From an uncultured Clostridia bacterium (GTDB lineage Bacteria; Bacillota; Clostridia; Oscillospirales; Oscillospiraceae): a DNA stretch of 64,000 nucleotides. The stretch is taken from contig CAMVAV010000003.1 of assembly GCA_947165595.1 (NCBI GenBank), positions 1 to 64,000 on the forward strand, given 5' to 3'. This document shows positions 30,602-50,684 of the stretch, in pieces; the stretch's first letter is position 1, and the number at the start of each line of letters is the position of its first letter. Under the pieces are notes generated by a model. The model worked only from the letters and a program-made list of their open reading frames with translations, was not told the DNA's origin and did not search any database. The position numbers and the translations under genes are program-made.

Positions 30602-31678
30602 TCATTCCCCGCGCAGGGCGCGCCCGAGCATCCGCTCCACGCGTTTTGCCTGCGCAAAGCGCCGCGCGTGGTTCTCACGCGCCTCGTCCGTTTTGCATTT
30701 CTCATAGCTCGACGCAAAGCGCGCCTCCAGCGTGACGCGCTCCGTCCCCCGCGTCTGCTTGTCCGCGAGGTACAGCACCGCCGCCTCGTCCGGCAGCCGC
30801 TCATGCTCCGGCGACAGCTCGTGGTGGCTTTCCACCGCCTCCGCCGCCCGCGGATAGCCCAGCGCGCGGAGCCACGCCGCGCCCGTGCGCGCGTGCTCCG
30901 TCTCCGTCCGCGCCACGTCGTGCAGCAGCGCCGCCGCGCGCAGCAGCGCCGCGTCGAGCGCGTACCCGTGTTCTTTAAGCGCCGCCGCCAGCTCCTCCGC
31001 ACGCGCCGCGACCGCCCTTGCGTGGGCGCGGACCGGCTCCGGCGTCCCCGCGGCGTCCAGCAGCCGCTCGCACAGTTCCGGCGTCAGCGGCGGCGGATCG
31101 GGCAGCGCGGCGAGCCGTTCGATCGTCCATGCCGAACCGTCAAGGCGAAGCGTGCTCACACAGCCCAAGGGCTGCGGCAGGCGCCAGAATTCGTTTCCGT
31201 CCCGCCCGCTCAGCGCGCACAGCAGCAGCCGGTTCACCCCCGCGTGCGCGACGACCGCGATATCGCCCGACGAGCGCCCCAGACACTCCTCCAGCGCCGT
31301 GCGCGCGCGTCTCCGGCAGTCCGCCGGCGCCTCGCCCCCCTCGGGAAAGCAGGTGAACGGCTCCCGCCCCCTTTTCTCGTAGAGCGCCGGAAAACGCCGG
31401 CGTATTTCGTCGAAGGAAAGTCCCTCCCAGCAGCCCATGCCGAGCTCGCGCAGGTCCTCTACGGTCTCCGCCCCGCGTCCGAGCGCCTCCGCGGTCTCCC
31501 GCGCGCGGCACAGCGGACTCGTAAACACGCGCGTCACCTCCGGCAGCGTCTCCGCCAGCAGCGCGGCGCGCATGCGTCCGAGCGCGCTGAGCGGCACGTC
31601 CGTCGCGCCCAGGCAGACAGGCCCTTCCGCGGGAAGCTCCGGCTCGCAGTGGCGGAGCAGATACACCGTCCTTGCCAT
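30602..31678 (-). CDS. histidine phosphatase - HD domain fusion protein
   Basis: VYLLRHCEPEL ... VVAHAGVNRLLL phosphatase motifs; AAALLHDVART ... ESHHEL HD motifs. Confidence 0.85.
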   Translation of the reverse strand: MARTVYLLRHCEPELPAEGPVCLGATDVPLSALGRMRAALLAETLPEVTRVFTSPLCRARETAEALGRGAETVEDLRELGMGCWEGLSFDEIRRRFPALYEKRGREPFTCFPEGGEAPADCRRRARTALEECLGRSSGDIAVVAHAGVNRLLLCALSGRDGNEFWRLPQPLGCVSTLRLDGSAWTIERLAALPDPPPLTPELCERLLDAAGTPEPVRAHARAVAARAEELAAALKEHGYALDAALLRAAALLHDVARTETEHARTGAAWLRALGYPRAAEAVESHHELSPEHERLPDEAAVLYLADKQTRGTERVTLEARFASSYEKCKTDEARENHARRFAQAKRVERMLGRALRGE

Positions 31679-31682
31679 GCGC

Positions 31683-32594
31683 TCAGCCGGAGATGTCCTC
31701 GACCAGTATTTTGAGCGAGCCGCCGCACGCCATGCCCTCGTCCGCGGCGACCTCGTTGCTCAGATCCGCGTCGACGACCTCCGCGCGCCCCGTGCCGATC
31801 AACCGCTCCGCCTTGCGCAGCGCCTCCGCCTCGCAGCAGCCGCCGCCGATCGTGCCCGCGCTCCGCCCCGCCTTGTCGACGATCATCATGGAGCCGGTCT
31901 TCGCGGGCGTGGAGCCGCGGCTTTCCAGCACCAGCAGCATCGCCTTGGGCGTCTGCGTGTCGGCGGCGAAGCGAAGCAGCGCCTCATCCGCGTCCGTCCG
32001 CTCCAGATACGACTCGTCCGTCGGACGGGAACGGCGCGCCAAAATCAGCTCCGCCGCGATGGAGACCGCGATCTCCATCGGCGTGAGCGCCTTGATCGGG
32101 ATGCCGATGGGCGTGTGGACGCTGCGGATGCGCTCCGGGTCGAAGCCCTCCTCCTCCAGCAGCTTGAGCTGCACGGCGGTCCGACGGCGCGAGCCGATCA
32201 TGCCGAGATAGTACGGCATCTCCTCCCCGGGCAGGATCGCGCGCAGACAGTCCCCGTCGAAGCGGTGCCCGCGCGTAATGACGCAGACATAGTCGAGCGG
32301 ACGGATGCGCAGCGCGCGGATCGCCGAGGCAAAATCGTCGCACACGATCTCCGCAGCGTCCGGAAAGCGCGTCCGGTTCGCAAACTCCGGCCGGTCGTCC
32401 ACGACCGTCACGGCGAATTCCAGCTTCGCCGCCAGCTCCGCCACCGCCTGGGAAACATGCCCCGCGCCGAGCAGGATCAGCCGCTCCGGCCGCGCAAAGC
32501 GCCTTGTGTAGAGCCTTCCGTCCACCGTGCGCGTCAGCGCCGCCTCGCGTCCCTCCGCCAGCTGCTCCAGCAGCGCCGCAAATTCCTCTGTCAT
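31683..32594 (-). CDS. XdhC/CoxI family molybdoenzyme sulfuration/accessory protein
   Basis: LILLGAGHVSQAVAELAAKLEFAVTVVDDR Rossmann, GMIGSRRR, then ESRGSTPAKTGSMMIVDKAGRSAGTIGGGCCEAEAL. Confidence 0.88.
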   Translation of the reverse strand: MTEEFAALLEQLAEGREAALTRTVDGRLYTRRFARPERLILLGAGHVSQAVAELAAKLEFAVTVVDDRPEFANRTRFPDAAEIVCDDFASAIRALRIRPLDYVCVITRGHRFDGDCLRAILPGEEMPYYLGMIGSRRRTAVQLKLLEEEGFDPERIRSVHTPIGIPIKALTPMEIAVSIAAELILARRSRPTDESYLERTDADEALLRFAADTQTPKAMLLVLESRGSTPAKTGSMMIVDKAGRSAGTIGGGCCEAEALRKAERLIGTGRAEVVDADLSNEVAADEGMACGGSLKILVEDISG

Positions 32595-32657
32595 CGCAAA
32601 CCTCCCGTATTCCTGTCATTTGGATTTTGAATAACGTACGCAAAAAGAAAAGAGCGG

Positions 32658-33626
32658 TCACGTCGTTCCGGCTTCCCCGTCCTTAAGCCGCCCGTTCAGC
32701 GCGCCGAAGGAGCGTTCAAACGCCGCGCGGCTCGCTGTCAGCAGCTCCCCGACGAAGCCGCGGTACGCCGCGAGCAGCGCCCGCCCGTCCGCGGTTAGCA
32801 TCGTACCGCCGCCCTCCGCGCCGCCGACGCTGCGCTCCGTGAGCCGCAGCCCCAGCTCGCGCTCCATGTCGCGCAGCCGCGTCCAGCCCCGGGTGTAGGA
32901 GATGTGCACGCAGGCGCACGCGCGCTGGATGGAGCCGGTCTGCCCGATCATCTCAAGGAACTGCGCGTCCTCCGGCCCGAACAGACAGCCGCCGCGGCCG
33001 ATCTGGATGTGCAGCTTCGGCCAGAAGCCGTCGCCGCTCCGCTCCACGGAATACTGCCTGCGGATCTTGAGCAGGTCCTCCTGCGTGTCCGCGTCCAGCG
33101 TGCAGCCGTAGTCGTCCACGGGCAGGTCCACCGCCGCGACCGCCAACTCCCGCAGCGCGCCGTTCAGCCCGCCCGCGCCCCTGAAGTCGAGCAGCGCCGG
33201 GATCAGCGCCGCGTCCAGCAGCAGCGGGTGTCCGGTCTTCCCGTCGTGCACGGGGCGGACCGCCTGCCCCTCCTGCGCCATCATCGCGCGCAGGGTTTCC
33301 GCGCGCATCAGGGGGATATCCCCCGGCGTGAGAAACAGCCTGTCGCAGGGCTCGCGCAGCGAGGCGATGCCGATCTTGAGGGAGTGGAGCATCTGCGTGT
33401 CCGTGTAGCTGTGATTCAGCACGACGCGCACGTCCCGGTCCCGCAACGCGCGTTCCAGCTCGTCGCCCCGATAGCCGCCGACGACCACGATCTCGCCGAC
33501 GCCCGCGTCGCGCATGCTGCGCACGATGCGCGCAACGATCGCCTCCCCGCCCACCTGGACGAGGGGTTTAAAATCCCGCATGCGCGAGGAGAGCCCCGCC
33601 GCCGCGATCACCGCCGATACCTTCAA
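32658..33626 (-). CDS. MobA-like NTP transferase (Moco cytidylyl/guanylyltransferase type) fused to a C-terminal ModE-like HTH domain; TTG start
   Basis: VSAVIAAAGLSSRMRDFKPLV, LTPGDIPLM; C-terminal IGQTGSIQRACACVHISYTRGWTRLRDMERELGLRL; GGGGGTGG SD before TTG 33626. Confidence 0.83.
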   Translation of the reverse strand: MKVSAVIAAAGLSSRMRDFKPLVQVGGEAIVARIVRSMRDAGVGEIVVVGGYRGDELERALRDRDVRVVLNHSYTDTQMLHSLKIGIASLREPCDRLFLTPGDIPLMRAETLRAMMAQEGQAVRPVHDGKTGHPLLLDAALIPALLDFRGAGGLNGALRELAVAAVDLPVDDYGCTLDADTQEDLLKIRRQYSVERSGDGFWPKLHIQIGRGGCLFGPEDAQFLEMIGQTGSIQRACACVHISYTRGWTRLRDMERELGLRLTERSVGGAEGGGTMLTADGRALLAAYRGFVGELLTASRAAFERSFGALNGRLKDGEAGTT

Positions 33627-33662
33627 GCTTCCACCCCCGTCCGAAGCAGCCGCAGCCGACCA

Positions 33663-33688
33663 ATATTCATTCTTCTGAATATCGTTAT
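33663..33688. promoter_or_regulatory. inverted repeat and CGTTAT at the NTP transferase promoter
   Basis: ATATTCA-TTCTTC-TGAATAT followed by CGTTAT; minus strand TTGACA-17-CATGAT promoter overlaps its edge. Confidence 0.55.
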
Positions 33689-33720
33689 CATGCCATACCG
33701 CCGCCGCTTTGTCAAGCGAC

Positions 33721-33752
33721 AAAAGGCGCCGCTTTTGCAAGCGGCGCCTTTT
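33721..33752 (-). terminator. terminator of the hydroxyproline cluster
   Basis: AAAAGGCGCCGCTT-TTGC-AAGCGGCGCCTTTT. Confidence 0.85.
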
Positions 33753-33777
33753 TGCTTGATTTCGGGATTGCGGGAAA

Positions 33778-35256
33778 TTACTTCTTGTCCGCGGCGATGC
33801 GGTCCTTGTTGATGGAGCGCCACAGATCCTTGTCGACGCCGTCAAACGGCAGCTTGTCGGGATCGTAGTACGGGTCCTTGCCGGCGTCCATCTGCGCGCG
33901 ATAGTCCTTGTAGAGCGCGAACGCCTTCGGAGCGAGGAACCAGAGCATGATGGTCTGGAACCAGGTCACGGAGCCGAGCGCCAGGTCGGACAGGTCCCAG
34001 GCCATGCTGGCGGGGACGATGCCGTAGATAACCACGAGGACGATCATGACGACCTTGAGCACGAGCTGGAAGGTCTTGCGCTGCTTCTCCTTGCCGTCGC
34101 CCTGGAACAGGTACAGCAGGGAGGTCTCCGCCTCATAGTAGTAGGACACGATGCAGGTGAAGGAGAACAGGAGCAGCATGACCGCGACGAACCACTGGCC
34201 GAAGCCGGCGATCACGGAGTCACAGGCAGCCTGCACGAAGCCGACGCCGCCCTCCTGACCGGCAACGGCAGCCGCGCCCTGATAACCGGAGGCGGTGTTG
34301 AAGCAGCCGGTGAGAAGGACCATGAACGCGGTGCAGGAGCAGACCACGATGGTATCCAGGAACACGCCCGCGGCGTTCGCGAGGCCCTGCTTGACGGGGT
34401 GGGAGGTCTCCGTCGCGGAGGCGGCGGGGACGGCCTCGCCCATACCGGAGGCGCTGGAGAAGGTACCGCGCTGCACGCCCTGACGGATCGCCGTGCCGAT
34501 CGCGCCGCCGATGACGGCGTCCTTGCCGAAGGCGCCCTTGAAGATCATGCCGAACACGGCGGGGATCTGACCGATATTCGCGACCACGATGATGATCGTG
34601 AAGAGCAGGTACGCGACCGTCATGAACGGGACGACCAGGGAGGCGAAGTCACCGATGCGCTTGATGCCGCCGATGATGATGACGCCGAGGATGGCGGCAA
34701 CGATCAGGGACGTGACCCACATCGGGACGCCCGCGGCGTTCTTGAAGGAATCGCTGATGGTGTTGGTCGCGGCGGCGGGCATGAAGAGCGCCGCGCCGAG
34801 GCCGAGCGCGAGAGCGAGGATGGTGCCGTACCACTTCTTGTTCCAGCCGTACTCGGCGCACATGGCGCCGGAGCCGCGGTACTCGCCGTCGATCTTCCTC
34901 TTGTAGAGCTGGCCGAGGGTGCACTCCACGAAGTTGACCGCCGCGTTGGTGATGCCGATGATCCACATCCAGAAGATCGCGCCGGGGCCGCCGCGATAGA
35001 TCGCGACCGCCACGCCCGCGACGTTGCCGGTGCCGATGCGCATCGCCATCGTGGTGCAGAACGAAGCGAAGGTGGAAATGCCGGATTCAGACTTTCCGCC
35101 GGAGAAGATGCGCTTCCACATATCGCCGTGGTGGGTGATCTGGAAGAACCCGAGCTTGATCGAGAACCAGATACCGCCGCCGCCGATGATGATCAGCATG
35201 CCGATTCCCCAGAAGAAACCGTTTAGGGTCCCTACCAGACTGCTAATTGCTTCCAT
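33778..35256 (-). CDS. alanine/glycine:cation symporter family (AGCS) transporter
   Basis: MRIGTGNVAGVAVAIYRGGPGAIFWMWIIG, GSGAMCAEYG, many TM segments. Confidence 0.92.
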   Translation of the reverse strand: MEAISSLVGTLNGFFWGIGMLIIIGGGGIWFSIKLGFFQITHHGDMWKRIFSGGKSESGISTFASFCTTMAMRIGTGNVAGVAVAIYRGGPGAIFWMWIIGITNAAVNFVECTLGQLYKRKIDGEYRGSGAMCAEYGWNKKWYGTILALALGLGAALFMPAAATNTISDSFKNAAGVPMWVTSLIVAAILGVIIIGGIKRIGDFASLVVPFMTVAYLLFTIIIVVANIGQIPAVFGMIFKGAFGKDAVIGGAIGTAIRQGVQRGTFSSASGMGEAVPAASATETSHPVKQGLANAAGVFLDTIVVCSCTAFMVLLTGCFNTASGYQGAAAVAGQEGGVGFVQAACDSVIAGFGQWFVAVMLLLFSFTCIVSYYYEAETSLLYLFQGDGKEKQRKTFQLVLKVVMIVLVVIYGIVPASMAWDLSDLALGSVTWFQTIMLWFLAPKAFALYKDYRAQMDAGKDPYYDPDKLPFDGVDKDLWRSINKDRIAADKK

Positions 35257-35314
35257 TGACGTTTTCCCTCCTAAATTTTGTTTTTTCTATCCCCTGACAG
35301 AGCCTCCGCGGCGG

Positions 35315-37771
35315 TCAGCAGCAGCCGCAGCCGCCGAAGCTCTGCTCGGTCCGTTCGATAATCTCGCCCTGCAGCTTGGAGTCGAGATTGCGGAAGTAGT
35401 CGCTGTAGCCCGCGACGCGGACGATCAGCTCCTTGTACTCGTCGGGCCGCTTCTGCGCGTCAATGAGCGTCTCGCGGTCGATGACGTTGAACTGGACGTG
35501 GTGGCCGTCCATCGCGAAGTAGGAGCGGATGAGCGCCGCCAGGTTGGCGATGCCCTCCTCGCCCGCCAGCGCCGACGGGGTGAACTTCTGGTTGAGCAGC
35601 GTGCCGCCGGTGGAGCAGTGGTCCATCTTCGAGCAGGACTTGATGACCGCCGTGGGGCCGTTGATGTCCGCGCCCTTCTCCGGGGAGATGCCCTCGGACA
35701 GCGGCATGTGCGCGAGGCGGCCGTTCGGGGAGGCGATCATCACGTCGCCGAAGTAGACGTGGCAGGTCGTCGGCAGCATGTCGACGTGGTACTGCCCGCC
35801 GCGGATGTTCGGGCGGCCCGTGATGTAGTCCTTGTACTCGTTGAAGACGGTCTGCATGATGCTGTCGGCATAGTCGTCGTCGTTGCCGTACTTGGGCGTC
35901 TTGTTCTTCACAAGGTTGTGGATGATCTCGTGGCCCTTGAAGTCGTCGTTCATCGCCGCAATGAGCTCCGCCATCGTGAACTTCTTCTCGTCGAAGACGT
36001 TGTACTTGATCGCGGACAGGCAGTCGGAGATCGTGCCGATGCCGACGCCCTGGATGTAGCTGGTGTTGTAGCGCGCGCCGCCGGCGTTGTAGTCCTTGCC
36101 CTTCTTGATGCAGTCGTCCGTGCAGATGGACAGGAACGGGGCGGGCATCATCTCGGCGTAGATCTTCTCGATGACGAGATTGCCGCGCATCTTGACGTCG
36201 ATGATGTGCTCGAGCTGGGTCTTGAACGCCGTCCAGAGCTCGTCGTAGGACTTGAAGTCCTCCGCCTTGCCGGTGTGCGGGCCGATCTGCTTCTTGAACA
36301 TCGGGTCATAGCCGTCGTAGAGCGCGAGCTCCAGGCACTTCGGGATGTTCAGATAGCCGGTGAGGATGTACGCCTCGGTGCCCCACGCGCCGGTCTCGAC
36401 GCAGCCGGAGCAGCCGGAGTTGCGCGCGTCAACGATGCTCTTGCCGGCGAGCAGCAGCTCCTGAATGAGCTCGTCCGTGTTGTAGAACGCGGGCTGGCCC
36501 CAGCCCTGACGGGCGATCTCGCAGGCGCGGCGCAGGAACTTCTCCGGCGTCTTCTTGGAAATCTGCACGTTGGAGTTGGGCTGGTTCTGGCGCATGTCCT
36601 CCATGCAGTCGAGGATCAGGTAGGAGACCGCGTTGACGCCGTCGGAGCCGTCCTCCTTCAGTCCGCCGGAGTTGATGTTCGCGAAGTCGACATAGGTGCC
36701 GGACTCCTTGAGCGTGACGCCGACCTTGACGGGCGCGGGGGAGTTGAACAGCTTCACCCACAGGCACTCGAGCAGCTCGAGCGCGCGGGTGTCGTCCAGC
36801 GTGCCGGCGGCGATGTCCTTCTCATAGAACGGGATCAGGTGCTGGTCGAGACGGCCGGGCGTGAACGCGTCCCAGGGGTTGAGCTCCAGCGTGACGCCGA
36901 GGTGCGTGAACCAGTACATCTGCAGCGCCTGCCAGTAGGTCTCGGGCTTGTGCGCCGGAACGACGGCGCAGTTCGCCGCGATCTGCTCCAGCTCCGCCTT
37001 GCGCTGCGGGTCCTCGCACTTCGCCGCCATCTCGAGGGCCAGGTCATGATAGCGCTGACCGAGGATGCACACGGCGTCGCAGTCGATCGCCATCGCGCGC
37101 AGCTCCTGCTCCTTGTCGTAGGCGTCGGGATCGTTGAAGTAGTCGAGGTTTTGGATCGCCTCCTCGATCTCCGCCTTGTAGTCGAGGTAGCCCTTGATGT
37201 AGAAGTTCTTGCCGCCGGCGGTGTGGCCGGGGCCGCGCTGCTCCATGAACTCGGTGAACATGCCGACCTCATAGCAGTCGCGCCACTCCTGCGTCATCGC
37301 CTTGAGAAGATGCTCGCGCACCGCGCGGTCCTTCCAGTAGGGGATAATGACCTTCTCCTGCAGCTCGAGGTCCTCCTGCGTGACGGTGAAGTTGACCAGC
37401 TTGCGGTCGTTCATGATGTGCATGTCCTCGATCGTATGGCAGCACAGCTCGGGGAAGGTCGGGGAGCACTGGGGGTCCTTGCCCTTCTCGCCGACGATCA
37501 GCTCGTCGTCGCCGAGATAGAGGGTCTTTTTGGAGAAGTACTCCTTGAGCACCATCGCGCGCAGGACGGGAATGGAAACGGAGCCCTCGTACTGCTTGTA
37601 GACCTCCGTCTCAATCTTCGCGCGCTCCATGTCGATGTGCGGCTGCGTGGCGTGGCTGATCCTTCTCAGGCGCTTGATGCGCTCGGTGCAGCCGCGCTCG
37701 TTGTCCTTCAGCAGCCGCTCGGGCGTATTGACGTTGAAGGAAGTATCCTGCTGGTTTGCGGCGTTTGCCAT
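35315..37771 (-). CDS. hypD: glycyl radical enzyme, trans-4-hydroxy-L-proline dehydratase type
   Basis: SGCVETG active-site Cys motif, RVAGYSDYF glycyl radical motif; strong overall resemblance to recalled C. difficile HypD; hypE and proC neighbours. Confidence 0.88.
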   Translation of the reverse strand: MANAANQQDTSFNVNTPERLLKDNERGCTERIKRLRRISHATQPHIDMERAKIETEVYKQYEGSVSIPVLRAMVLKEYFSKKTLYLGDDELIVGEKGKDPQCSPTFPELCCHTIEDMHIMNDRKLVNFTVTQEDLELQEKVIIPYWKDRAVREHLLKAMTQEWRDCYEVGMFTEFMEQRGPGHTAGGKNFYIKGYLDYKAEIEEAIQNLDYFNDPDAYDKEQELRAMAIDCDAVCILGQRYHDLALEMAAKCEDPQRKAELEQIAANCAVVPAHKPETYWQALQMYWFTHLGVTLELNPWDAFTPGRLDQHLIPFYEKDIAAGTLDDTRALELLECLWVKLFNSPAPVKVGVTLKESGTYVDFANINSGGLKEDGSDGVNAVSYLILDCMEDMRQNQPNSNVQISKKTPEKFLRRACEIARQGWGQPAFYNTDELIQELLLAGKSIVDARNSGCSGCVETGAWGTEAYILTGYLNIPKCLELALYDGYDPMFKKQIGPHTGKAEDFKSYDELWTAFKTQLEHIIDVKMRGNLVIEKIYAEMMPAPFLSICTDDCIKKGKDYNAGGARYNTSYIQGVGIGTISDCLSAIKYNVFDEKKFTMAELIAAMNDDFKGHEIIHNLVKNKTPKYGNDDDYADSIMQTVFNEYKDYITGRPNIRGGQYHVDMLPTTCHVYFGDVMIASPNGRLAHMPLSEGISPEKGADINGPTAVIKSCSKMDHCSTGGTLLNQKFTPSALAGEEGIANLAALIRSYFAMDGHHVQFNVIDRETLIDAQKRPDEYKELIVRVAGYSDYFRNLDSKLQGEIIERTEQSFGGCGCC

Positions 37772-37775
37772 CGTG

Positions 37776-38693
37776 TCATCCTCCTATCTTGATATTATGA
37801 AATCCATGGGCCTCAAACATGGTTTTCAACTCCTCCATCCGCTCCTTGGGCGGGACGCGCATGCTCTCCTCGTCGTAGGGGCGGTCCAGCCCCGCGTACT
37901 TCCCCTTGCCGATGTCGTGGTACGGCAGCAGGTTGATGCGGAAGGGCTCGATATGGTTTTCCCGCAGGAAATCCATCAGTTGAACGATATGCTCCGTCTC
38001 GTCGTTTTTTCCCTCGACGATCGGCAGGCGCAGATAGAGCTTCGCCCCGTCCCTGGCAAGGCGGATCAGGTTGGCGAGGATCAGCGTGTTGTCCACGCCC
38101 ACGTCCGCGCGGTGCTCGTCCGGGTCGATGCTCTTGATGTCGTAGAGAAACGCGTCCACATAGGGCAGCACGCGCTCGAAGTGCTCATAGGGGGCGAAGC
38201 CGCTCGTGTCGATGAACACGCTGATGCCCTCGCGCTTGAGCCTGCGGCACAGCTCCGCGACGAAGTCCATGTCGTGCACGGCCATCACCTCGCCGCCGGA
38301 GAGCGTGACGCCGCCGCCCGACTGCTCGTAGAACGGCAGGTCCTTCTTCGCCTCCTTCAGCAGCTCGTCGACCGTGTATTCCTTCCCCGCGATCTCGCGC
38401 GTCTCGGTCATGCACCAGTCGATGCACCTGCCGCAGGCGGTGCACCGGTCGCGGTGGAAGACCAGCTTCCCGTCCGCGATCTCGTTCGCCCCGTTCGGAC
38501 ACTTCTTCACGCACATGCCGCAGGCGGTGCACTTGTGCCGGTGGAGGATCAGCTCCTTTTCAAAGCGCTGGCTCTCCGGATTGTGACACCACTGGCAGCG
38601 CAGCGGGCAGCCCTTGAAGAAGATCGTCGTGCGGATGCCGTCGCCGTCGTGGATGGAATATTTTTGAATATTGAATACAAGCGGAGTCTCCAT
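37776..38693 (-). CDS. hypE: glycyl radical enzyme activating enzyme
   Basis: IHDGDGIRTTIFFKGCPLRCQWCHNPESQ and two CxACGxCxxxCP ferredoxin motifs; start at 38693. Confidence 0.92.
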   Translation of the reverse strand: METPLVFNIQKYSIHDGDGIRTTIFFKGCPLRCQWCHNPESQRFEKELILHRHKCTACGMCVKKCPNGANEIADGKLVFHRDRCTACGRCIDWCMTETREIAGKEYTVDELLKEAKKDLPFYEQSGGGVTLSGGEVMAVHDMDFVAELCRRLKREGISVFIDTSGFAPYEHFERVLPYVDAFLYDIKSIDPDEHRADVGVDNTLILANLIRLARDGAKLYLRLPIVEGKNDETEHIVQLMDFLRENHIEPFRINLLPYHDIGKGKYAGLDRPYDEESMRVPPKERMEELKTMFEAHGFHNIKIGG

Positions 38694-38891
38694 CGCATTG
38701 CCCTCCGGGGTCAGGATCAAACGGCGGAAAAGCCGGAAAAAACACAGGATTCGTATGCCTCGTGAGCTTCTTGTATCATAGCACACCGCACCGGCGATTG
38801 CAAACAATTCATTCTCGGCGTTTCGTATATATTTGCATTTTTGTTTTCACCAGTTTCACCAAATTTTTGCCCGGTGCTCCTTCAAAAATAT

Positions 38892-38919
38892 AAAAAAACC
38901 GGATAGCTCCGGTTTTTTT
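38892..38919 (-). terminator. intrinsic terminator after proC
   Basis: AAAAAAACCGGA-TAGC-TCCGGTTTTTTT. Confidence 0.85.
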
Positions 38920-38941
38920 GAATGATATAAACCATTTTGAT

Positions 38942-39760: not shown

Positions 39761-39831
39761 GATCGAATCCCCCTTCGTTGCTTCGCCGAGATATCAGAAT
39801 AAAGTGAATCATACCACGTTTTCGCGGATTG

Positions 39832-41355: not shown

Positions 41356-41382
41356 TTGTGTTCTCTCCTTTTTCTCTGCTTT

Positions 41383-42012: not shown

Positions 42013-43295
42013 GGCGCGTACCCCGTCAGATACGCCGCGCAGAACGGCAGCAGCCGCCCGTCGCGGCAGACGTGGAGGCTGCACCGGCGCAGGCGCTCGA
42101 CGTCCAGATTCCCCGCGTCCTGAAACGCCATCGCGCTGACGGTGAAGCCGTGCGCGCGCTTCCAGAGGAGGAAGCCGTCGAGCGAATGGGGGTCGGCGTC
42201 ATCGCAGCAGCAGGCGTCCCCCGCGCCCGACCAGCGCTTTCCGATGTAATTGCGGTTCCGCTCCGCCGAATCACGCGCGCCGCAGCAGCTCTCCGCCGCC
42301 TCGCCGCGCTTTGTCAGCGGCTCGAGCCGTCCGCCCGGCAGCGCGATATACTCCCCGTGCAGCCCGCAGAGCGGATGGTCGCAGGCGGAGGGGATCAGGC
42401 TCTCGCGCGTGATCGCGCCGCCGGTCTGCTCCACCAGCGCGTCGATCAGCTCGCCGAGCGTATAGCGGTCCTTATCCTTCGGCGGGGACGGCACGCGCCC
42501 GAACCAGCTCACGGGCTGGAAGTGGACGCCCCGCACCGCCGGGGTATGGGCGGCGGCATAGCGCACAAGCGCCCCGATCTGATCGGTGTTGACGCCCGGC
42601 ACGAGCGTCGGCACCAGCGTCACGCCGATGCCGTTTTTGGCGCAGGCCTCGATCGCCGCCTCCTTGACGCGCAGGAGCGGCCGGCCGCGCAGGGTCTCAT
42701 AGATATCGTCCCGCACGCCGTCGAACTGCAAAAACACGATGTCCGTTCCCGCCTCCGCCAGCGCCCTGACATAGCCCGGATCGGCGGCGAGGCGCAGTCC
42801 GTTCGTGTTGACCTGCACGAAGGAGCAGCCCGCCCGCTTGGCGTGAGCGGCAAGCTCCGGCAGGTCGTCGCGCAGCGTCGGCTCGCCCCCGCTGAGCTGG
42901 AGCAGCGGCGCGCCCGCCTTTTTCACAATGTCGTCGATCCGCGCGCGCAGCAGCTCGCCGTCCGGGTCGCCGCCGCTGCCGCCGTCCGCGAAGCAGAACC
43001 GGCAGCGGAGGTTGCAGCGTCCCGTCACCTCCAGCAGCACGCAGCAGGACTTGCGCAGATGCCTGTCGCAAAGCCCGCAGCCCTCCGGGCAGCGCAGCCC
43101 CTCCTCCGCGCCGTACTCCGGCAGCGCGCCGGTCCACGAGTCGATATCCTCGCTCCCGCGCCAGACCACGGCGGAAAAGTCCCCGTGCTCCGGGCAGGTC
43201 TTTTCCAGGACCCACGCGCCGCCGCGCCGGACCCGTTTCGCCGGGACGCGGCGCAGGCAGACGGGGCAGACGCTCGCGGTCCTTCTTCCGTTCAT
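42009..43295 (-). CDS. radical SAM protein (TrsS-like)
   Basis: EVTGRCNLRCRFCFA, LSGGEPTLRDDLPEL; N-terminal CPVCLRRVPAK zinc-type motif; Cys-rich C-terminus. Confidence 0.85.
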   Translation of the reverse strand: MNGRRTASVCPVCLRRVPAKRVRRGGAWVLEKTCPEHGDFSAVVWRGSEDIDSWTGALPEYGAEEGLRCPEGCGLCDRHLRKSCCVLLEVTGRCNLRCRFCFADGGSGGDPDGELLRARIDDIVKKAGAPLLQLSGGEPTLRDDLPELAAHAKRAGCSFVQVNTNGLRLAADPGYVRALAEAGTDIVFLQFDGVRDDIYETLRGRPLLRVKEAAIEACAKNGIGVTLVPTLVPGVNTDQIGALVRYAAAHTPAVRGVHFQPVSWFGRVPSPPKDKDRYTLGELIDALVEQTGGAITRESLIPSACDHPLCGLHGEYIALPGGRLEPLTKRGEAAESCCGARDSAERNRNYIGKRWSGAGDACCCDDADPHSLDGFLLWKRAHGFTVSAMAFQDAGNLDVERLRRCSLHVCRDGRLLPFCAAYLTGYAP

Positions 43296-44563
43296 GTCTC
43301 CCGTCCGCCTCCCTTCGTCAGTGCGCGCTTGTCCATCCCCGTGCCCGAAAAGCCGCGGAGCGTCCGGCATTCCAGCTCGACGCGCAGCCCCCTTGCCGCG
43401 CCCGACGCAAGAAGCGCCGCGCGGAGCGCGCCCTTGTCCGGCGGCTCAAGTCCAAAAACAGTGAGATAAAGGGCTTCCCCCTCCGCGCGCGCGCAAAAAT
43501 CCACCGCGCCGTCGCAGGAGAAGATCGCGCCGTCCAGCTCCCACAGGGAGAGCCTCTCATCCGTCCGCGCGGCGCGCCCGCCCTCCGGAACGACGCGCGC
43601 GAGCCGGCTCCCGCAGCCGCAGCGCTCCGTCCGCAGCACGCCCAGATCGCCGCTCCGATAGCGCAGAAAGGGCATCGCCTCGCGCCGCAGCGTCGTAAAG
43701 ACGAGCTCGCCCCGCTGTCCCGGCGGCAGCGGCGCGCCGGTTTCGGGGTCGATCACCTCGACCAGAAGGTCGTTCTCCCGCACATGGCAGCCCCGGTGCG
43801 CGGCGCACTCCACCGCGCCGCCGTAGCCCAGCTCCGTCATGCCGAAGTGTGTGAACACCGGACAGCCCAGCAGCGCCCCGACGCGTTTGACCAGCGCGGG
43901 ATGCGCGGCGTCGGCGCTGAGCAGCACCGAGCGGAGCCGCAGCCGCTCCGGCTCCGGCAGCGCCGCCCCATAGCAGGCAAGGCCGAGCACCTGCACGGGG
44001 ATGCCCACCGCGCAGCCGCAGCCGGCCTCCCGCAGGGCGCGATAGGTCGCCGCGACGTCGGTAACGGGGCCGAGCTTCACAGCCTCGGCGGGGATGCGCG
44101 CAAGGCCGCGCGCGAGCAGGTCGCCCACGCTCCCCGGCTGCTCCGACGGCATCAGAATGCCGACGCGCTCGCCGGGCGCGATCAGCTCCCGCATCCCATG
44201 CGTAAAGAAGTCGACCGTGCGCTCCAAATCGCTTTCCGTGAAGAAAACACGCTTGGGCTCCGCCGTCGTGCCGGAGGTCTTGAGCGTCACGATCCGCCCG
44301 ACCCGCGACGCGGCGCAGCACAGCCAGTCCCCGCCCCGCGCGCGCAGCTGCTCCGCCGTCGTCAGCGGCAGCAGCGGCAGGTCGGCGCGCGCGCGCAGAC
44401 AACTCGGATCGACGCCGCGCAGCAGCTCCGCGTAAAACCGGCTTTTTTCGCGCGCGTACACGACCGTCTCGCGCAGGCGCGCCATCTGCCACGCCTCCAG
44501 CGCGGCGCGGTCCTTGCAGCCGGTGTCGGCGAGCACCCAGCGCTCCAGCGGTCCGCCGCTCAC
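43292..44563 (-). CDS. AMP-dependent CoA ligase-like (phenylacetate-CoA ligase-like; DVU_1553-like), GTG start
   Basis: TSGTTAEPKRVFF, THFGMTELGYGGAVEC, GELVFTTLRREAMPFLRYRSGDLG; GTGA overlap with 44560 ORF. Confidence 0.82.
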   Translation of the reverse strand: MSGGPLERWVLADTGCKDRAALEAWQMARLRETVVYAREKSRFYAELLRGVDPSCLRARADLPLLPLTTAEQLRARGGDWLCCAASRVGRIVTLKTSGTTAEPKRVFFTESDLERTVDFFTHGMRELIAPGERVGILMPSEQPGSVGDLLARGLARIPAEAVKLGPVTDVAATYRALREAGCGCAVGIPVQVLGLACYGAALPEPERLRLRSVLLSADAAHPALVKRVGALLGCPVFTHFGMTELGYGGAVECAAHRGCHVRENDLLVEVIDPETGAPLPPGQRGELVFTTLRREAMPFLRYRSGDLGVLRTERCGCGSRLARVVPEGGRAARTDERLSLWELDGAIFSCDGAVDFCARAEGEALYLTVFGLEPPDKGALRAALLASGAARGLRVELECRTLRGFSGTGMDKRALTKGGGRET

Positions 44564-44751
44564 TTGTTCTCCAGCTCCATCTCCACCTCCGCCACGCGCC
44601 CGCGCACCAGCTCCTCGGAGAGGTAGACCTCTCCGCATTTGGGACAGCGCGGGGCGTCGGCAAAGAAGACGTGCCCCAGATATTCAAAGTCCACCCGCCG
44701 CGGTTCCAGCGGGCAGCCGCATTTGCCGCAGAGCATCTCCCGTTCAGCCAT
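44560..44751 (-). CDS. small two-CxxC zinc/iron protein (DVU_1557-like)
   Basis: LCGKCGCPL ... CPKCGEVYLSEE. Confidence 0.8.
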   Translation of the reverse strand: MAEREMLCGKCGCPLEPRRVDFEYLGHVFFADAPRCPKCGEVYLSEELVRGRVAEVEMELENK

Positions 44752-46987
44752 TGTCGTGTCCCTCCACGATGCGCATCCGGTGCGCGTAGGCGTTGAGCAG
44801 CTCGAAGCCCTCCCCTGCCGCGCGGTACTCGACCCAGACGGTGGCGTTCCCCACCTGCGCGTGGCCCGCGCGGCTGTCCGTCTCCGGGTCGCGGAGGAAG
44901 CGTCCGCTCTCCTCGCAGCGCAGCACGGCGGCCTCTGCGTCCTCGCGCAGCAGGTGGTCGCGATCCAGCTTCGTCAGCAGCTCCGGCGCGATCGAAAGTC
45001 TGATTTTCGGTTCCTCCATCGGCGTCACCTCCCCGGGGGTAAAGCGCTCCTGCAAGCGCCGCTTGAGCGCGCGCCGGTTGTCGCGGCTCTCGCTGGCGGT
45101 AGGGGCTTTCCGCTCCCAGTCGGGAGCGGAGAACAGCAATTCGAGAATATGCGCCGCGCGCTTCCCCGCCGACGCGAACACGTCGCGGCAGTTGGCGCAG
45201 TACGCGAGGTACGGCGCGTCCCCCTCCCCCGCACGGCTTTTCGTCACGTCGGAGGCGTAGCCGGGATTCGAGAGCGCCACATGTCCGCCCCAGCCGCAGC
45301 AGCGGGCGTATTTGCCCTCCATGCGCAGCGGCTCGAGCCGCCAGCCCGCCTTCTCCGCCAGCGAGCGCACGGCGCGCTGCGCGTCGGGCCAATCCCGGCT
45401 CGAGCAGGGGTCGAACACCGACACGGTCTCCCCCGCGCCGCGCTTCGGCACGGGAAAGCCCTCGTCCAAAACCTCGTAGAGCGAGACGGACGCCATCTCG
45501 GGCAGATAGCGCGCGAACTCCCTCCGACAGCTCATGCAGGCGAACACCGGCGTCGGCTCGCCGAGGGAGCGCCACGCCGCGCGCAGCCGCTCCAGCACCG
45601 CCTCATGCAGCTCCGTCCTGCCCGCCCACGACGCGCCCGCGCCGCAGCAGCCGAGCAAAACGGCGCTGTCGGGCGCGACCGTCCGCAGCGCGTCGAAGCT
45701 CCGCTCGACCAGCTCCGGGCTCGACCCGCTCAGGCGGCAGCCGGGGAAAAAAAGATACCGCGGCGTCTTCGTTTCGGAGGGCGAGAGACAGAGCCACGCC
45801 TCCCCGTTCGCGAATTCCAGGTCGCGCAGCCAGAACTCGTGGAACGCCCAGGGCATCGCGCCCAGCTCCTGCATTTTTCTCTGGCTCTCCAGCAGAAACG
45901 CCCCCGTGTCGATCCCCGCGGGGCAGACCGCCTTGCACAGCCCGCAGTGGTCGCAGGCGGCGATCAGCCGCGTCGCGAGCCGCGCCTTGCGCGAGAGGCT
46001 GACCGGCTCGATGGTCGTCGTGACCTCCTCCTCGAGGCGGCTGGGGTACTTCTGGTTGCTGCGCATCAAATCGCAGTACGTCACGCAGGCGTCGCAGCGG
46101 CACTCCCGGCAGCGCTGCGCCTCCGCGACCGCCTGCTCCGGCGTATAGCCTCCCTCCCCCGGCGCCACGGCGGGCGCGGGCGCGGGCAAAAGCGCGGGGT
46201 CCGGGTGAAAGCGGGTGGAGCCGTCGCGAAACGGCTCGTTCCTCCCGCCGGTCTTGAGATAGCGTTCGACGGCGCGCGCGGCGGTCAGCCCGTCGGCAAT
46301 GGCGGCGACCGGGTCCCTCCCGACGAGCCCTCCGCCGAGGAAGACGCCTTCGCGTCCGCTCGCGCACGCGCCCGTGCCGGAGAGCGTCATGCCGAAGGCG
46401 TCGCCGCCGCGCCCGGTGGCAAGGTATATCGCCTCCGCGTCCAGCTCCGAGAGGTCGCGCACCTCCGTCTCATAGCGGAACTCCACCGTCTCGTGCATGA
46501 ACTGCATGTCGAGCTCCGCGTCCAGCGCCTCGTCCGGCAGCAGGCCGCGCAGCGAGCCGCCGCGCCGCGCGCCGCGCTCGTAGACCGTGACGGCGTACTT
46601 CTTCGACGCGAGCCGCAGCGCGCAGGCAAGCCCGCTCGGCCCCGCGCCGACGACGGCGATACGCTCCTTTCGCTTCGGCAGATTGTAGCGGTTGGGCCTT
46701 GGGTTCGGCGTGTGCGCCGCCGCGGCGCGCTCCAGCTCCCGCAGGGAGATCGCGCCGTTCCTCTGCGCGAAAACGCACGCCCCCTCGCAAGGATGCGGAC
46801 AGACGCGCGAAACGATCCCCGGAAACGCGGTCGCGTCCCGGTACATCCGATAGGCGGCGGCGAACGCGCCGCGCTTGAGATGCGCGACAAACGCGCGCAC
46901 GTCCAGTCCGAAGGGGCACTCCGCCGCGCAGGGGGGCGGATCGTTCTGCATGCACAGGGCCTCCAGCTGTTCCTTGAAGCTCGCCAT
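44744..46987 (-). CDS. GltD-like FAD oxidoreductase with 4Fe-4S and HdrB-like CCG domains (DVU_1558-like)
   Basis: CAAECPFGLDVRAFV, RVCPHPCEGACVF, IAVVGAGPSGLACALRL, CDHCGLCKAVCPAGIDTG, GCCGAGASW, CCGWGG. Confidence 0.85.
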   Translation of the reverse strand: MASFKEQLEALCMQNDPPPCAAECPFGLDVRAFVAHLKRGAFAAAYRMYRDATAFPGIVSRVCPHPCEGACVFAQRNGAISLRELERAAAAHTPNPRPNRYNLPKRKERIAVVGAGPSGLACALRLASKKYAVTVYERGARRGGSLRGLLPDEALDAELDMQFMHETVEFRYETEVRDLSELDAEAIYLATGRGGDAFGMTLSGTGACASGREGVFLGGGLVGRDPVAAIADGLTAARAVERYLKTGGRNEPFRDGSTRFHPDPALLPAPAPAVAPGEGGYTPEQAVAEAQRCRECRCDACVTYCDLMRSNQKYPSRLEEEVTTTIEPVSLSRKARLATRLIAACDHCGLCKAVCPAGIDTGAFLLESQRKMQELGAMPWAFHEFWLRDLEFANGEAWLCLSPSETKTPRYLFFPGCRLSGSSPELVERSFDALRTVAPDSAVLLGCCGAGASWAGRTELHEAVLERLRAAWRSLGEPTPVFACMSCRREFARYLPEMASVSLYEVLDEGFPVPKRGAGETVSVFDPCSSRDWPDAQRAVRSLAEKAGWRLEPLRMEGKYARCCGWGGHVALSNPGYASDVTKSRAGEGDAPYLAYCANCRDVFASAGKRAAHILELLFSAPDWERKAPTASESRDNRRALKRRLQERFTPGEVTPMEEPKIRLSIAPELLTKLDRDHLLREDAEAAVLRCEESGRFLRDPETDSRAGHAQVGNATVWVEYRAAGEGFELLNAYAHRMRIVEGHDNG

Positions 46988-47019
46988 CCCGCCGTTTCCT
47001 CCCTCCTGTCGATAACGAA

Positions 47020-47048
47020 ATTATACGTAGCTAACGCAAAAAAGTCAA
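47020..47048 (-). promoter_or_regulatory. promoter of the accessory operon 46987-39832
   Basis: minus strand TTGACT-17 bp-TATAAT. Confidence 0.75.
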
Positions 47049-47063
47049 GCGAAGGGCAGGGAA

Positions 47064-47093
47064 AGACCGCGGACGGAGAACCGCCCGCGGTCT
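47064..47093 (-). terminator. hairpin downstream of the Mop gene
   Basis: AGACCGCGGaCGG-AGAA-CCGcCCGCGGTCT. Confidence 0.6.
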
Positions 47094-47120
47094 TGTTTGG
47101 ATTTTGGGAAACGGCGCGCT

Positions 47121-50055
47121 TCAGAACGGCTTCGCCGCGTCCTTGTCGTCCAGCGGCGTATAGAAGCTGTCGCCGCCGAAGGCGACGGGATGCGCCTTGA
47201 TGTTCGCCAGCTCCTCGTAGAGGTCGCTGCCGAGGAAGTAGGGCTCGGGCTTGTAGGGCTCCTTGCCTGCGGCGATGGCGTCCATGCCCGCCTTGATCTT
47301 CTCCGGCGACGCCGGCAGCTCGTAGATGCGCACGCCCGTGGCGTTCTTGATGCCGTTGATGACCGCCACGTGGCCGGACGCCTGGAACGCCTCGGACGCG
47401 CCGGAGGAGCCGAAGGGTCCGATCTCGTCGGGACGCTCGTAGAAAATCACGTTGATATCGTCCGGCGTGTCGTTGCAGTAGGGCACGCCCGCGCCGTAGA
47501 TGTTGGCGTGCTTCTTCACGTCGTCATAGTTCTCGGTCAGCGCGAAGCCGATGGAGTGCGAGATGCCGCCGTACGCCTGGCCGAGGACGGAGGCGATGTT
47601 GCCGGGCCTGCCCACGTCGCAGACGCAGGCGAAGCGGATGCACTGCGCCTTGCCGGTCTTGGTATCGACCTCGACCTCCGCGATGTTGAAGCAGTAGGTG
47701 TAGGTGGGATTGGGGTTGCCGACGCCCGTGTTCGGGTCCATGCGGCAGAGCTTCGCGCCGCGCGGCTGTACGGTCGTGTTGCTGTAGCGGCCGTGATAGC
47801 GGGTCGGGAGCCCCTCGGCGACCATCTCGTCATAGGTGCGGTAGCTGCCGTCCGGCTTGCGCATGGCGTCGAGCAGCTTGTTCGCCGCGTCGATCGTGGC
47901 GCGCCCGCTCATGAAGTGCGTGCGGCTCGAGCCGGACATGCCGGAGTCGGGGCAGAGCTTGGTGTCGTTCTGCACCAGCTTGACCTGCTCGGGCTTAATG
48001 CCCAGCGGCTTGAGCGCCTCGAGCGTGAGCATCAGCGAGCCGATGTCGCCGCCCTGGCCGAGCTCCTGATAGGTGTCGTACTTGGTGATCGTGCCGTCGG
48101 GATTGAGCTCAAGGTCGGCGCACGCCTCGTCGGTCGCGCCCTCGGTGACGTTGAAGCCGCCCCACGAAACGCCGACGCCGCGCTTCTTCTCCGGCGTGGA
48201 GGTCTCTCTGGCGTGCTGCTTCATCTCCTCGTAGACGGGCTTCGCCTTCTTCATCAGCTCCTCCATCGGGTACTGCGGATGCTCGTAGCTCGCGGTGCCG
48301 AGCTCGCCCTCGCGGGTGATGTTGCGCCAGCGAAGCTCGAAGGGATCGAGCCCCAGCTTCTCCGCCATCATGTCCATCATGGACTCGGAGTGCATGTACG
48401 CCTGCGGCGAGCCGTAGGAGCGGTAGGCGGTGGCGAAGTTGTGGTTGGTGTTGGCGATACGGCCCAGCGCGGCGATGTGCGGCACGTTGTACGGGAAGTA
48501 GGCGTGGCGCACGACCTTGGTGATCAGGTCGTCGCCGCCCCAGGAGTACGCGCCGTGATCCACGCCGAAGTCGAACTCGACCGCGAGGATCTTGCCGTCG
48601 TTGTCGCAGGCGAGGCGGCCGTTGGAGTAGGCGGGCGCGCGCTTGCCGGAGAAGTGCTGGTGCTCCTCATAGGTCATGGAGAGCGACACCGGCATGCCCG
48701 TTACGACCGTACACGCGCCGCAAAGGGCGAGGTCGCCGGCGTTGGTCGACCAGCCGAAGCTCGCGCCGGTCGGGTTCATCAGCACGCGCATCTTGTTCGT
48801 CGGCACGCCGAGGCTGCCGCCGATGCGGCTGATGGAGGAGTAGACGCCCTGGCTCTTGCACTGGAAGGTCAGGTAGCCGTCCTCGTCGAAGTAGGACTGC
48901 AGCACGTCGCCCTCGATGGACATGTGCGGCTCGCGCGTGGTGTAGAACGAGCCCTCGACCACGTTGGGCGCGTTGTCGATCATCTCGCGCACCTTCTCCG
49001 CGTCCTCGAGGCCCGCGCCCTTGAGCAGGGGCTGCTCGCAGTAGATGTTGGGCGTGTCGTCGTGCACGCGCACGGCGTCGGGCATGACCGCCTCGAGATA
49101 GTTGAGCATCTCGGGCAGCTTTTCGATGTCGACCGTCACCTTCGCGGCGGCGGCGCGGGCGTGGGCGCGGGTATCGGCGCAGACGACCGCCACTACGTCG
49201 CCCCAGCGGAAGAGCTTCTCGTCGCACAGCACGCGGCGGGAGGACTCGAGCACGGTGGAGCGCTCGTGGAACTGGCCCTCGGCAAGGATGTTCGTGCCGC
49301 CGGCGGCCTTGAGCGCCTCGGCGGTGACGACCTTGTAGACGCCGGGCATCTTCTCGGCCTCCTCGGTGTGGATGGCGAGGATCTTCGCGTGATGCGCCAC
49401 GCGCGGCTGCACGATCGCGCCGAAGAGCGTGTTCTCCGGGAAGGAGAGCTCCTGGTCGTCGCCGTAGTCATAGGTGCCGGTGACCTTTGCCAGCGCCGTC
49501 GGGCGGACCAGCGGCTTGCCGTAATACTCTCCGTCCTCGGGCAGCTTCACGGTGATGTCGTCGATCGTCGCCTCGCCGCGCATAACCTTCGCCGCCGCCA
49601 TGACCGCGTCGATGATCTGCTTGTAGCCCGTGCAGCGGCAGACGTTCTTGTGCTTGGTGAACCACTCCCTCGCCTCCTGACGGGTGGGGTTGGGGTTCGA
49701 CTGGAGCAGCGCGTAGGTCGATACGATAAAGCCCGGGATGCAGAAGCCGCACTGGAGCGCGCCGTACTGCATGAACGCGACCTGGATCGGGTGCAGGTGC
49801 GTCGGCGTGCCGATGCCCTCGATCGTCAGCACGGTGCTGTACTCCTCGATCATGCGGATCTTGCGGGTGCAGGAGCGGATCAGCTCGCCGTTGAGGATCA
49901 CCGAGCAGGAGCCGCACACGCCGGTGCCGCAGCCGACCTTCGTACCCGTGAGACCCATGCGGCGGAGCACGTCCGCCAGCGTATCCGTCTCCGGGTCGAC
50001 GGTGAACACGCGGTTGACGCCGTTGATGTTGAGCCACATCTTTCTAAGTTTCATG
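47121..50055 (-). CDS. Mop-type molybdenum-containing aldehyde oxidoreductase (xanthine oxidase family, one-subunit 2Fe-2S + Moco)
   Basis: KVGCGTGVCGSCSV and CGFCIPG...NVCRCTGYKQII 2Fe-2S motifs; Moco-domain motifs PFGSSGASEAF; start MKLRKMWLNINGVNR. Confidence 0.9.
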
Positions 50056-50111
50056 CCTGACCTCCGTTTGTTGTAATATCCGTGGAATCCCTCTAAATGC
50101 CATACGGTCTG

Positions 50112-50140
50112 AGTATATACGCCGCCCGTCCGCCTGTCAA
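50112..50140 (-). promoter_or_regulatory. promoter of the Mop gene
   Basis: minus strand TTGACA-17 bp-TATACT. Confidence 0.8.
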
Positions 50141-50144
50141 TTAT

Positions 50145-50186
50145 CAATCTTTTGAATAACGCCTGCACAATCTTTTGAATAACGCC
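50145..50186. repeat. two exact 19-bp direct repeats CAATCTTTTGAATAACGCC between divergent promoters
   Basis: copies at 50145-50163 and 50168-50186, 23 bp apart. Confidence 0.95.
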
Positions 50187-50196
50187 GGCGCGGGCG

Positions 50197-50225
50197 TTGA
50201 CATTCCGCGGCGGCAGGGCTATAAT
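50197..50225 (+). promoter_or_regulatory. promoter of the C_GCAxxG_C_C gene
   Basis: TTGACA-17 bp-TATAAT. Confidence 0.85.
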
Positions 50226-50267
50226 TTCGCCGATCTTTCATTTTTTTACACAAGGGAGGACGCCTGT

Positions 50268-50684
50268 ATGGACAACGATCGCATTCAAGAGCTGCTGGCG
50301 CAGCGGTTCCACTGCTCGCAGATCCTGATGAAATCCGGCATGGAGCTGCTCGGAAAGGACGACCCCGATCTGCTGCGCGCGATGAACGGGCTCGCGGGCG
50401 GGCTGGGCGGCTGCGGACGCAACTGCGGCGCGCTGACCGGCGGCGTGTGCATGTTCGGCCTGTTCCTCGGGCGCGGCACGCCGGAGGAGGCGGAAAACCC
50501 CGCGCTTTTCGAGCTGGTATCCGAATATCTCGCGTGGTTCGAGGAGACGTACGGCAGCCCCGACTGCGACACGATCCTCGAGGGCGATCAGGCCAACATT
50601 CCCCGCGTCTGTCCGGGGCTGATCGAGAGCGCCGTGGAGAAGGCGGCGGAGCTGCTGCGCGAACGCGGCTGTCTGCCGGAATGA
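50268..50684 (+). CDS. C_GCAxxG_C_C-type redox protein (DVU_1555-like)
   Basis: FHCSQILM ... GLGGCGRNCGALTGGVCMFGLFLG ... CDTIL ... CPGLIESAVEKAAELL; GGGAGG SD. Confidence 0.82.
   Translation: MDNDRIQELLAQRFHCSQILMKSGMELLGKDDPDLLRAMNGLAGGLGGCGRNCGALTGGVCMFGLFLGRGTPEEAENPALFELVSEYLAWFEETYGSPDCDTILEGDQANIPRVCPGLIESAVEKAAELLRERGCLPE

Follow-up and report, generated by a model that had tools for sequence, protein, structure and literature searches.

Putative accessory locus for the molybdenum aldehyde oxidoreductase Mop in an uncultured Clostridia bacterium

The 64,000-nucleotide stretch analyzed here (the window) comes from an uncultured Clostridia bacterium (assembly GCA_947165595.1, contig CAMVAV010000003.1), a gut bacterium with a molybdenum aldehyde-oxidizing enzyme, Mop, and a set of helper genes. 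We propose, with a probability of about 0.5, that these genes form a Mop-dedicated accessory locus that combines maturation of the cofactor with electron transfer and with a step in which three enzymes act on a small molecule. The three enzymes (the triad) are the TrsS radical S-adenosylmethionine (SAM) enzyme, a DVU_1556-family SAM methyltransferase, and a DVU_1553-family ligase. On our best reading, the locus is that of a Mop of the Desulfovibrio gigas aldehyde oxidoreductase (DgAOR) type, in the type B form carried by the window. This proposal builds on homology, ligand conservation, co-occurrence, and gene order, from which we infer the chemistry, the substrate, and the order of steps.

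The triad follows Mop closely across genomes. Among 300 genomes of the window's phylum (the window genome being left out of the counts), Mop occurs in 20, TrsS in 17, the methyltransferase in 17, the ligase in 16, and a further accessory protein, NF045663, in 17. All 17 TrsS genomes, all 17 methyltransferase genomes, all 16 ligase genomes, and all of those with NF045663 fall inside the Mop set (Fisher p = 5e-25 to 4e-23; p = 5e-25 for TrsS with Mop), with contig-edge or slightly sub-cut-off matches accepted for TrsS in G072, Mop in G073 and G076, and the ligase in G030 and G072. Strong matches to the xanthine dehydrogenase family are found in 110 genomes, and none of the 90 without Mop carries TrsS; the triad is tied to Mop itself, not to other members of that family. 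Similarly, 55 of 101 Desulfovibrionales genomes have Mop, 51 have TrsS, and 50 have both (p = 8e-22); in the only genome with TrsS and no Mop (G407), TrsS is cut by a contig end. These counts bear out a preliminary description of this DNA, which had placed the radical SAM enzyme, methyltransferase, and ligase with Mop.

A wider set of 80 species-level TrsS genomes, which are the best matches to the query and not a random sample, shows the same association. A Mop-family protein lies within 10 kb of TrsS at 41 of the 80 loci (40 to 41 for distances of 8 to 10 kb). Whole-genome searches of 41 TrsS genomes, covering nearly all of those that lack a nearby Mop, gave a match in 39 (31 over the cut-off). 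Mop is present in about 77 of the 80; three drafts with TrsS (G311, G320, and G323) have no convincing Mop. Widespread occurrence of the accessory families without Mop, the outcome that the preliminary description had named as damaging to its case, is thus not observed, since TrsS genomes with no Mop nearby nearly all have one elsewhere.

The reverse dependence is less strict. In one genome (G208, 96% complete in 310 contigs), we found Mop on four contigs read (L053, L172, L173, and L174), together with NF045663 and the two-CxxC gene described below, and TrsS, the ligase, and the methyltransferase were all absent. The joint absence suggests that the three enzymes form one unit that is normally, but not always, needed. 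Another genome, G343, has Mop, and TrsS and the methyltransferase were not found in it. In a quick tree, the Mop genomes without TrsS do not form a single clade. The triad thus appears dispensable in a few Mop genomes, which weakens the interpretation first placed on it.

TrsS resembles a lipid-synthesizing radical SAM enzyme. A profile built from 17 TrsS proteins finds the tetraether lipid synthase GDGT-MAS (Tes; PDB 7tol) at E=6e-117, far ahead of MoaA, and an AlphaFold2 model of the window TrsS (pLDDT 82) superposes on 7tol with a template modeling (TM) score of 0.79, at about 31% sequence identity. In 95 TrsS sequences, the rubredoxin-type CxxC...CxxH ligands (CxxC-C-xxH, 100%), the N-terminal cluster CxxxCxxC plus His (96-99%), the radical SAM motif CxxxCxxC (100%), and the cysteines of the C-terminal cluster are kept, and 98% have a methionine aligned with the labile Met439 of GDGT-MAS. 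These ligands predict for TrsS all four metallocofactors of GDGT-MAS, namely a rubredoxin-like site and three [4Fe-4S] sites. It also has two more invariant cysteines, C84 and C310. The stretch from the radical SAM core to the C-terminal cluster is about 69 residues long, against 107 in GDGT-MAS, suggesting that the substrate is probably not a lipid; the neighbors of TrsS give no lipid link either. Further, the protein scores 297 bits against the Tes model, below the cut-off of 450, and is not filed as Tes. MAS keeps its substrate carbon bonded to a sulfur atom of one of its auxiliary clusters (PMC9433317); it was formerly proposed to be a pterin methylase, a claim that later authors were unable to reproduce. 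We infer that TrsS may carry out chemistry similar to that of MAS on a substrate that is probably not a lipid.

Two other assignments for TrsS were set aside. A role as a methyltetrahydrofolate (methyl-H4folate) class D methylase was dropped, as the founding enzyme, MJ0619, proved to be GDGT-MAS. The window TrsS has no in-frame TGA and is a cysteine form, which the family name allows; selenocysteine in the TrsS of G284 and G332 was rejected, the TGA there being an ordinary stop codon. DUF5714 is fused to the N terminus of TrsS at three loci (L095 9257-11266, L117 54-2099, and L124 4420-6519) and to its C terminus at one (L128 9920-12142), and lies near TrsS in 11 further loci. Homology of DUF5714 to the C_GCAxxG_C_C family, with which it has a CGA motif in common, is unsupported (hhalign probability 1%). 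Separately, TrsS-like radical SAM proteins at L177 9704, L178 7026, and L179 9187 match the TrsS profile only to about position 330; they occur in genomes with or without Mop and are apparently a sister family. A search of the literature accessible to us found no functional paper for DVU_1553, DVU_1556, DVU_1557, or TrsS, and a 2026 review names TrsS only as a selenoprotein family.

The genes of the window between 30602 and 50684 are as follows.

47121..50051, minus strand: Mop, molybdopterin-dependent aldehyde oxidoreductase (NF045668, 1144 bits; best PDB matches 1dgj/1sij, 814/793 bits)
44744..46987, minus strand: NF045663 protein (NF045663, 713 bits, cut-off 530)
44560..44751, minus strand: DVU_1557-family two-CxxC protein, 63 residues (NF045645, 73 bits, cut-off 60)
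43292..44563, minus strand: DVU_1553-family AMP-dependent (PaaK-like) ligase (NF045666, 406 bits, cut-off 300)
42009..43295, minus strand: TrsS radical SAM enzyme, cysteine form (NF045646, 519 bits, cut-off 490)
41383..42012, minus strand: DVU_1556-family SAM methyltransferase (NF045667, 186 bits, cut-off 155)
40270..41355, minus strand: CobW-type GTPase with a conserved CxC motif (PF02492, Pfam domain only)
39832..40248, minus strand: NifX-like small protein with a Cys/His-rich tail (PF02579, weak at 18.6 bits and E=0.0023, cut-off 26.3)
33778..39760, minus strand: trans-4-hydroxyproline utilization cassette of ProC, HypD activase, HypD, and AgcS, outside the Mop system
32658..33626, minus strand: nucleoside triphosphate (NTP) transferase, MocA-like, fused to a ModE-type helix-turn-helix domain (NF045665, 182 bits, NTP-transferase part only; ModE TIGR00637)
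31683..32594, minus strand: XdhC-family maturation protein (PF13478, PF02625; NF045664, 266 bits, cut-off 350)
30602..31678, minus strand: histidine phosphatase (CobC-like) fused to an HD domain (PF00300, PF01966; the HD part matches the HD half of NF045665)
50265..50684, plus strand: DVU_1555-family C_GCAxxG_C_C protein (NF045669, 134 bits, cut-off 103)

Every Mop-system gene named in the preliminary description is thus present about where it was placed, as judged by Pfam and NCBIfam matches. On the minus strand, Mop is followed by NF045663, the two-CxxC gene, the ligase, TrsS, the methyltransferase, CobW, and the NifX-like gene; after a break occupied by the hydroxyproline cassette come the NTP transferase-ModE, XdhC, and phosphatase-HD genes. 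The C_GCAxxG_C_C gene is divergent from the rest. Neighboring genes in the run that starts with NF045663 and ends with the methyltransferase all overlap by a few bases: the ATG of the two-CxxC gene runs into the NF045663 stop at 44744-44751, and the next three junctions are GTGA at 44560-44563 (two-CxxC/ligase), ATGA at 43292-43295 (ligase/TrsS), and ATGA at 42009-42012 (TrsS stop/methyltransferase start). The start/stop overlaps first noted from 44751 to 42009 are therefore real. The NTP transferase and XdhC miss the NF045665 (182 bits, cut-off 315) and NF045664 cut-offs, and the domains are redistributed into the ModE and phosphatase fusions.

The Mop match covers positions 2-904 of 905 with a cut-off of 1100; the start near 50051 was picked by match to relatives, and the open reading frame extends to 50168. 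Two [2Fe-2S] domains and the molybdenum cofactor domains lie on one chain (PF00111, PF01799, PF01315, PF02738, and PF20256), and a Pfam domain search found no flavin adenine dinucleotide (FAD) domain in the window Mop. Against the selenium-dependent molybdenum hydroxylase model TIGR03311, it scores 353 bits, below the cut-off of 830. The window Mop is predicted to oxidize aldehydes with a cytosine-dinucleotide cofactor and to lack a sulfido ligand, properties known only for the D. gigas enzyme (PMC3877041).

The same module lies beside that enzyme. The Mop of one genome (G433) is identical to PDB 1sij, from D. gigas, over the 206 residues compared, and after it (locus L164) come NF045663, the two-CxxC, methyltransferase, C_GCAxxG_C_C, TrsS, ligase, XdhC, and phosphatase genes. 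The parts of PMC3877041 and PMC10223205 that were read describe the D. gigas structures as lacking the sulfido ligand, report no modified pyranopterin cofactor for DgAOR, and do not discuss its accessory genes. DgAOR activity is governed by the oxidation state of the dithiolene: oxidation inactivates the enzyme, and dithionite plus sulfide reactivates it without sulfur insertion (PMC3877041).

NF045663 contains a DPYD-like Fe-S domain, an NAD(P)/FAD domain, two [4Fe-4S] motifs, and two CCG (HdrB-like) regions, with a cysteine pattern conserved in 56 sequences, and is a probable redox partner of Mop. In the two-CxxC protein, C8, C11, C36, and C39 are each kept in at least 95% of 60 sequences; in all, three cysteine-rich small families accompany Mop. 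The ligase, whose PDB matches are the phenylacetate-CoA ligases 4r1l and 2y4o, keeps its adenylation core motifs; beyond about residue 331, in the region that holds the lid and thioester-forming residues of PaaK-like enzymes, it is not conserved (55 sequences). CobW is directly beside TrsS on the same strand at 25 of the 80 loci, often with no other module gene close, and NifX-like homologues occur in other Mop/TrsS loci. Extra genes that recur in the Mop/TrsS loci encode transport proteins and a molybdopterin-binding-domain protein, and additional catabolic genes are not among them.

The proposed locus would work in three layers. In cofactor maturation, the NTP transferase-ModE fusion would probably cytidylylate molybdopterin, alongside XdhC and possibly the phosphatase-HD fusion. 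Electron transfer or reductive activation would fall to the NF045663, two-CxxC, and C_GCAxxG_C_C proteins, with NF045663 probably receiving electrons from Mop, which is without an FAD part. The third layer would be the Mop-dependent triad (TrsS plus the DVU_1556 methyltransferase and DVU_1553 ligase), in which TrsS would be served by CobW and, in other organisms, by DUF5714. With the metallocofactors predicted for it, TrsS should be capable of carrying a substrate carbon radical on the C-terminal auxiliary cluster and of making a C-C or C-S bond there at an unactivated carbon. Most likely, the product or target of the triad is a small organic molecule required by Mop in vivo, either an electron carrier or a group that activates or protects transiently, and not a permanent change to Mop itself or to the cofactor. 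The narrower idea that the triad builds a small organic cofactor or electron carrier for Mop through a GDGT-MAS-type radical reaction on the auxiliary cluster is tentative.

Several alternatives draw on the same evidence. The triad could instead modify Mop or its molybdopterin cytosine dinucleotide by methylation, alkylation, or thiolation, an idea in keeping with its near-strict dependence on Mop, its place in an operon with cofactor maturation genes, the bonding of unactivated carbons by TrsS relatives via an auxiliary cluster (PMC9433317), and the former, unreproduced pterin methylase claim. D. gigas, however, has the module beside Mop, and its pyranopterin is described without modification in the paper and review read, which makes a permanent modification less likely and constrains the cofactor modification suggested in the preliminary description; G208 has Mop without the triad, and the ligase would have no obvious role. 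We regard modification as unlikely. Also doubtful is a reductive activation or repair system in which the redox members keep the Mop dithiolene reduced and active and the triad makes a thiol or carrier. The reversible inactivation of DgAOR, the HdrB-like CCG regions of NF045663, and the three cysteine-rich small families are consistent with it, but cofactor redox control has been seen only with purified enzyme, and TrsS chemistry is not tied to a reductant. A further alternative is a catabolic pathway with a Mop step: the ligase would activate the acid made by Mop, and the same substrate would be acted on by TrsS and the methyltransferase. An aldehyde oxidoreductase paired with a neighboring PaaK-like ligase that activates acids makes chemical sense. 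We consider this pathway quite improbable, given that the lid and thioester part of the ligase is not conserved and that no additional catabolic genes recur.

Other points weigh against the reading of a Mop-dedicated locus with a molecule-making triad. Genomic linkage cannot separate molecule-making from modification of Mop. A modification too labile to survive purification, or one left unmodelled, would escape crystal structures, and the D. gigas cells used for those structures may not have expressed the module. On the genomic side, the losses of triad genes are apparent and may not be true ones: G208 is a draft of 310 contigs, Mop in G073 is only a fragment at a contig edge, and no genome-wide search was made for the ligase of G343. 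The presence counts take in the contig-edge and sub-cut-off matches in G072, G030, G073, and G076, and the 80 TrsS loci were chosen as best matches.

The preliminary description treated 30602-50684 as one Mop cluster and overlooked the hydroxyproline cassette at 33778-39760. Its four genes, unrelated by family to the Mop set, separate the NTP transferase from the NifX-like gene, and because they intervene, the range is not one operon. A promoter scan gave 8 promoter-like sites against 1.6 expected; these sites, the terminator-like stems, and the cassette genes include the following.

50140-50112, minus strand: promoter-like site 5' of Mop
47048-47020, minus strand: promoter-like site 5' of NF045663
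39835, minus strand: promoter-like site 5' of ProC
38804, minus strand: promoter-like site 5' of the HypD activase
33715-33687, minus strand: promoter-like site 5' of NTP transferase-ModE
50197-50225, plus strand: promoter-like site 5' of the divergent C_GCAxxG_C_C gene (12 of 12)
38919: strong terminator-like stem 3' of ProC
33752: strong terminator-like stem 3' of AgcS
38942-39760, minus strand: ProC (TIGR00112, 245 bits)
37776-38807, minus strand: HypD activase (NF043069, 420 bits, cut-off 425)
35315-37771, minus strand: HypD (NF043068, 1438 bits, cut-off 1100)
33778-35256, minus strand: AgcS (TIGR00835, 347 bits)

The NF043068 score above 1100 and the activase alongside identify HypD. Since the hydroxyproline genes have their own promoter-like sites and terminator-like stems, they are probably independent, and the cassette is probably an independent insertion outside the Mop system. 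Both Lawsonibacter loci (see below) have the Mop module and no hydroxyproline cassette, and the full cassette is in none of the other Mop/TrsS loci read, where HypD is never among the module genes; the flanks of L082, L091, and L092 hold a distant glycyl-radical-activase-like or AgcS-like gene. The cassette yields P5C (1-pyrroline-5-carboxylate), which equilibrates with an aldehyde. A metabolic link to Mop through this aldehyde is conceivable and unsupported.

The host genome is a draft of 2.83 Mb in 165 contigs, 78% complete. The nearest Mop proteins, up to 88% identical, are from two drafts of Lawsonibacter (Oscillospiraceae), and none of 17 relatives in the window's genus has Mop at E <= 1e-200; the locus is therefore patchy in this lineage. 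A large serine recombinase, somewhat similar to CcrB, lies at window 26936-28522 (minus strand), adjoined by a 612-residue open reading frame at 28767-30605 without a Pfam match. The recombinase and the patchy distribution hint at a mobile region. Elsewhere in the genome (G000:C88, L193), another pair of large subunits of the xanthine dehydrogenase family is encoded, accompanied by an NTP transferase-like gene. The window also holds a UvrA-like protein of 760 residues (50721-53003, plus strand), shorter than standard UvrA and below the cut-offs of its models, and a glmS ribozyme (58372-58526, plus strand; Rfam RF00234, 78.9 bits).

The individual families are already catalogued, most with NCBIfam models named after the DVU_1551-1559 locus that the preliminary description had rightly pointed to. 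Of its "unrecognised" system, then, the gene set is recognised and the chemistry alone is unassigned. The new findings are how strongly the triad depends on Mop, its joint absence from G208, the set of GDGT-MAS ligands in TrsS, the fusions of TrsS with DUF5714, and the link to D. gigas. For decades, the Mop of D. gigas has served as a textbook molybdenum enzyme. It is unusual because it works with no sulfido ligand, and its activation chemistry and electron acceptor are debated; the genome that encodes the crystallized protein carries, beside the Mop gene, a near-obligate set of unassigned enzymes. If the triad does make a Mop-specific molecule, biology would have one more cofactor or carrier, and the tetraether-synthase family would gain a role beyond lipids.

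Compared with known systems, the hydroxyproline cassette is ordinary, having HypD, activase, and ProC in common with the trans-4-hydroxyproline dehydratase cassette (PMC7077986), and unusual only in being placed within the Mop cluster. The selenium-dependent molybdenum hydroxylases (TIGR03311; PMC2276186) have the xanthine dehydrogenase superfamily and an XdhC-like accessory protein in common with the window but a different accessory set. DVU_1551-DVU_1559 of Desulfovibrio vulgaris (NF045645, NF045646, NF045663-NF045669) has the same Mop, NF045663, two-CxxC, methyltransferase, C_GCAxxG_C_C, TrsS, ligase, XdhC, NTP transferase, and HD families, and all window members except XdhC and the NTP transferase pass the cut-offs. 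The window differs in its divergent type B Mop, extra CobW and NifX-like genes, divergent C_GCAxxG_C_C gene, inserted hydroxyproline cassette, and NTP transferase-ModE and HD-phosphatase fusions in place of an NTP transferase-HD fusion. Text on D. vulgaris fitness data does not mention DVU1559, DVU1553, or DVU1556 and describes that organism's aldehyde oxidoreductase as a tungsten enzyme. The D. gigas Mop (DgAOR, PDB 1sij/1vlb; L164) is of the same family, with the same core module and operon direction as the window. It is type A, with a solved structure and no sulfido ligand, whereas the window Mop is type B, about 45% identical to DgAOR-type proteins; CobW and NifX-like genes were not seen in the 19.5 kb of L164 read. 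Finally, GDGT-MAS / Tes (PDB 7tol) has the modeled fold of TrsS and every metal ligand, including the labile methionine, in common with it, whereas the partners of TrsS are molybdenum genes, not lipid genes.

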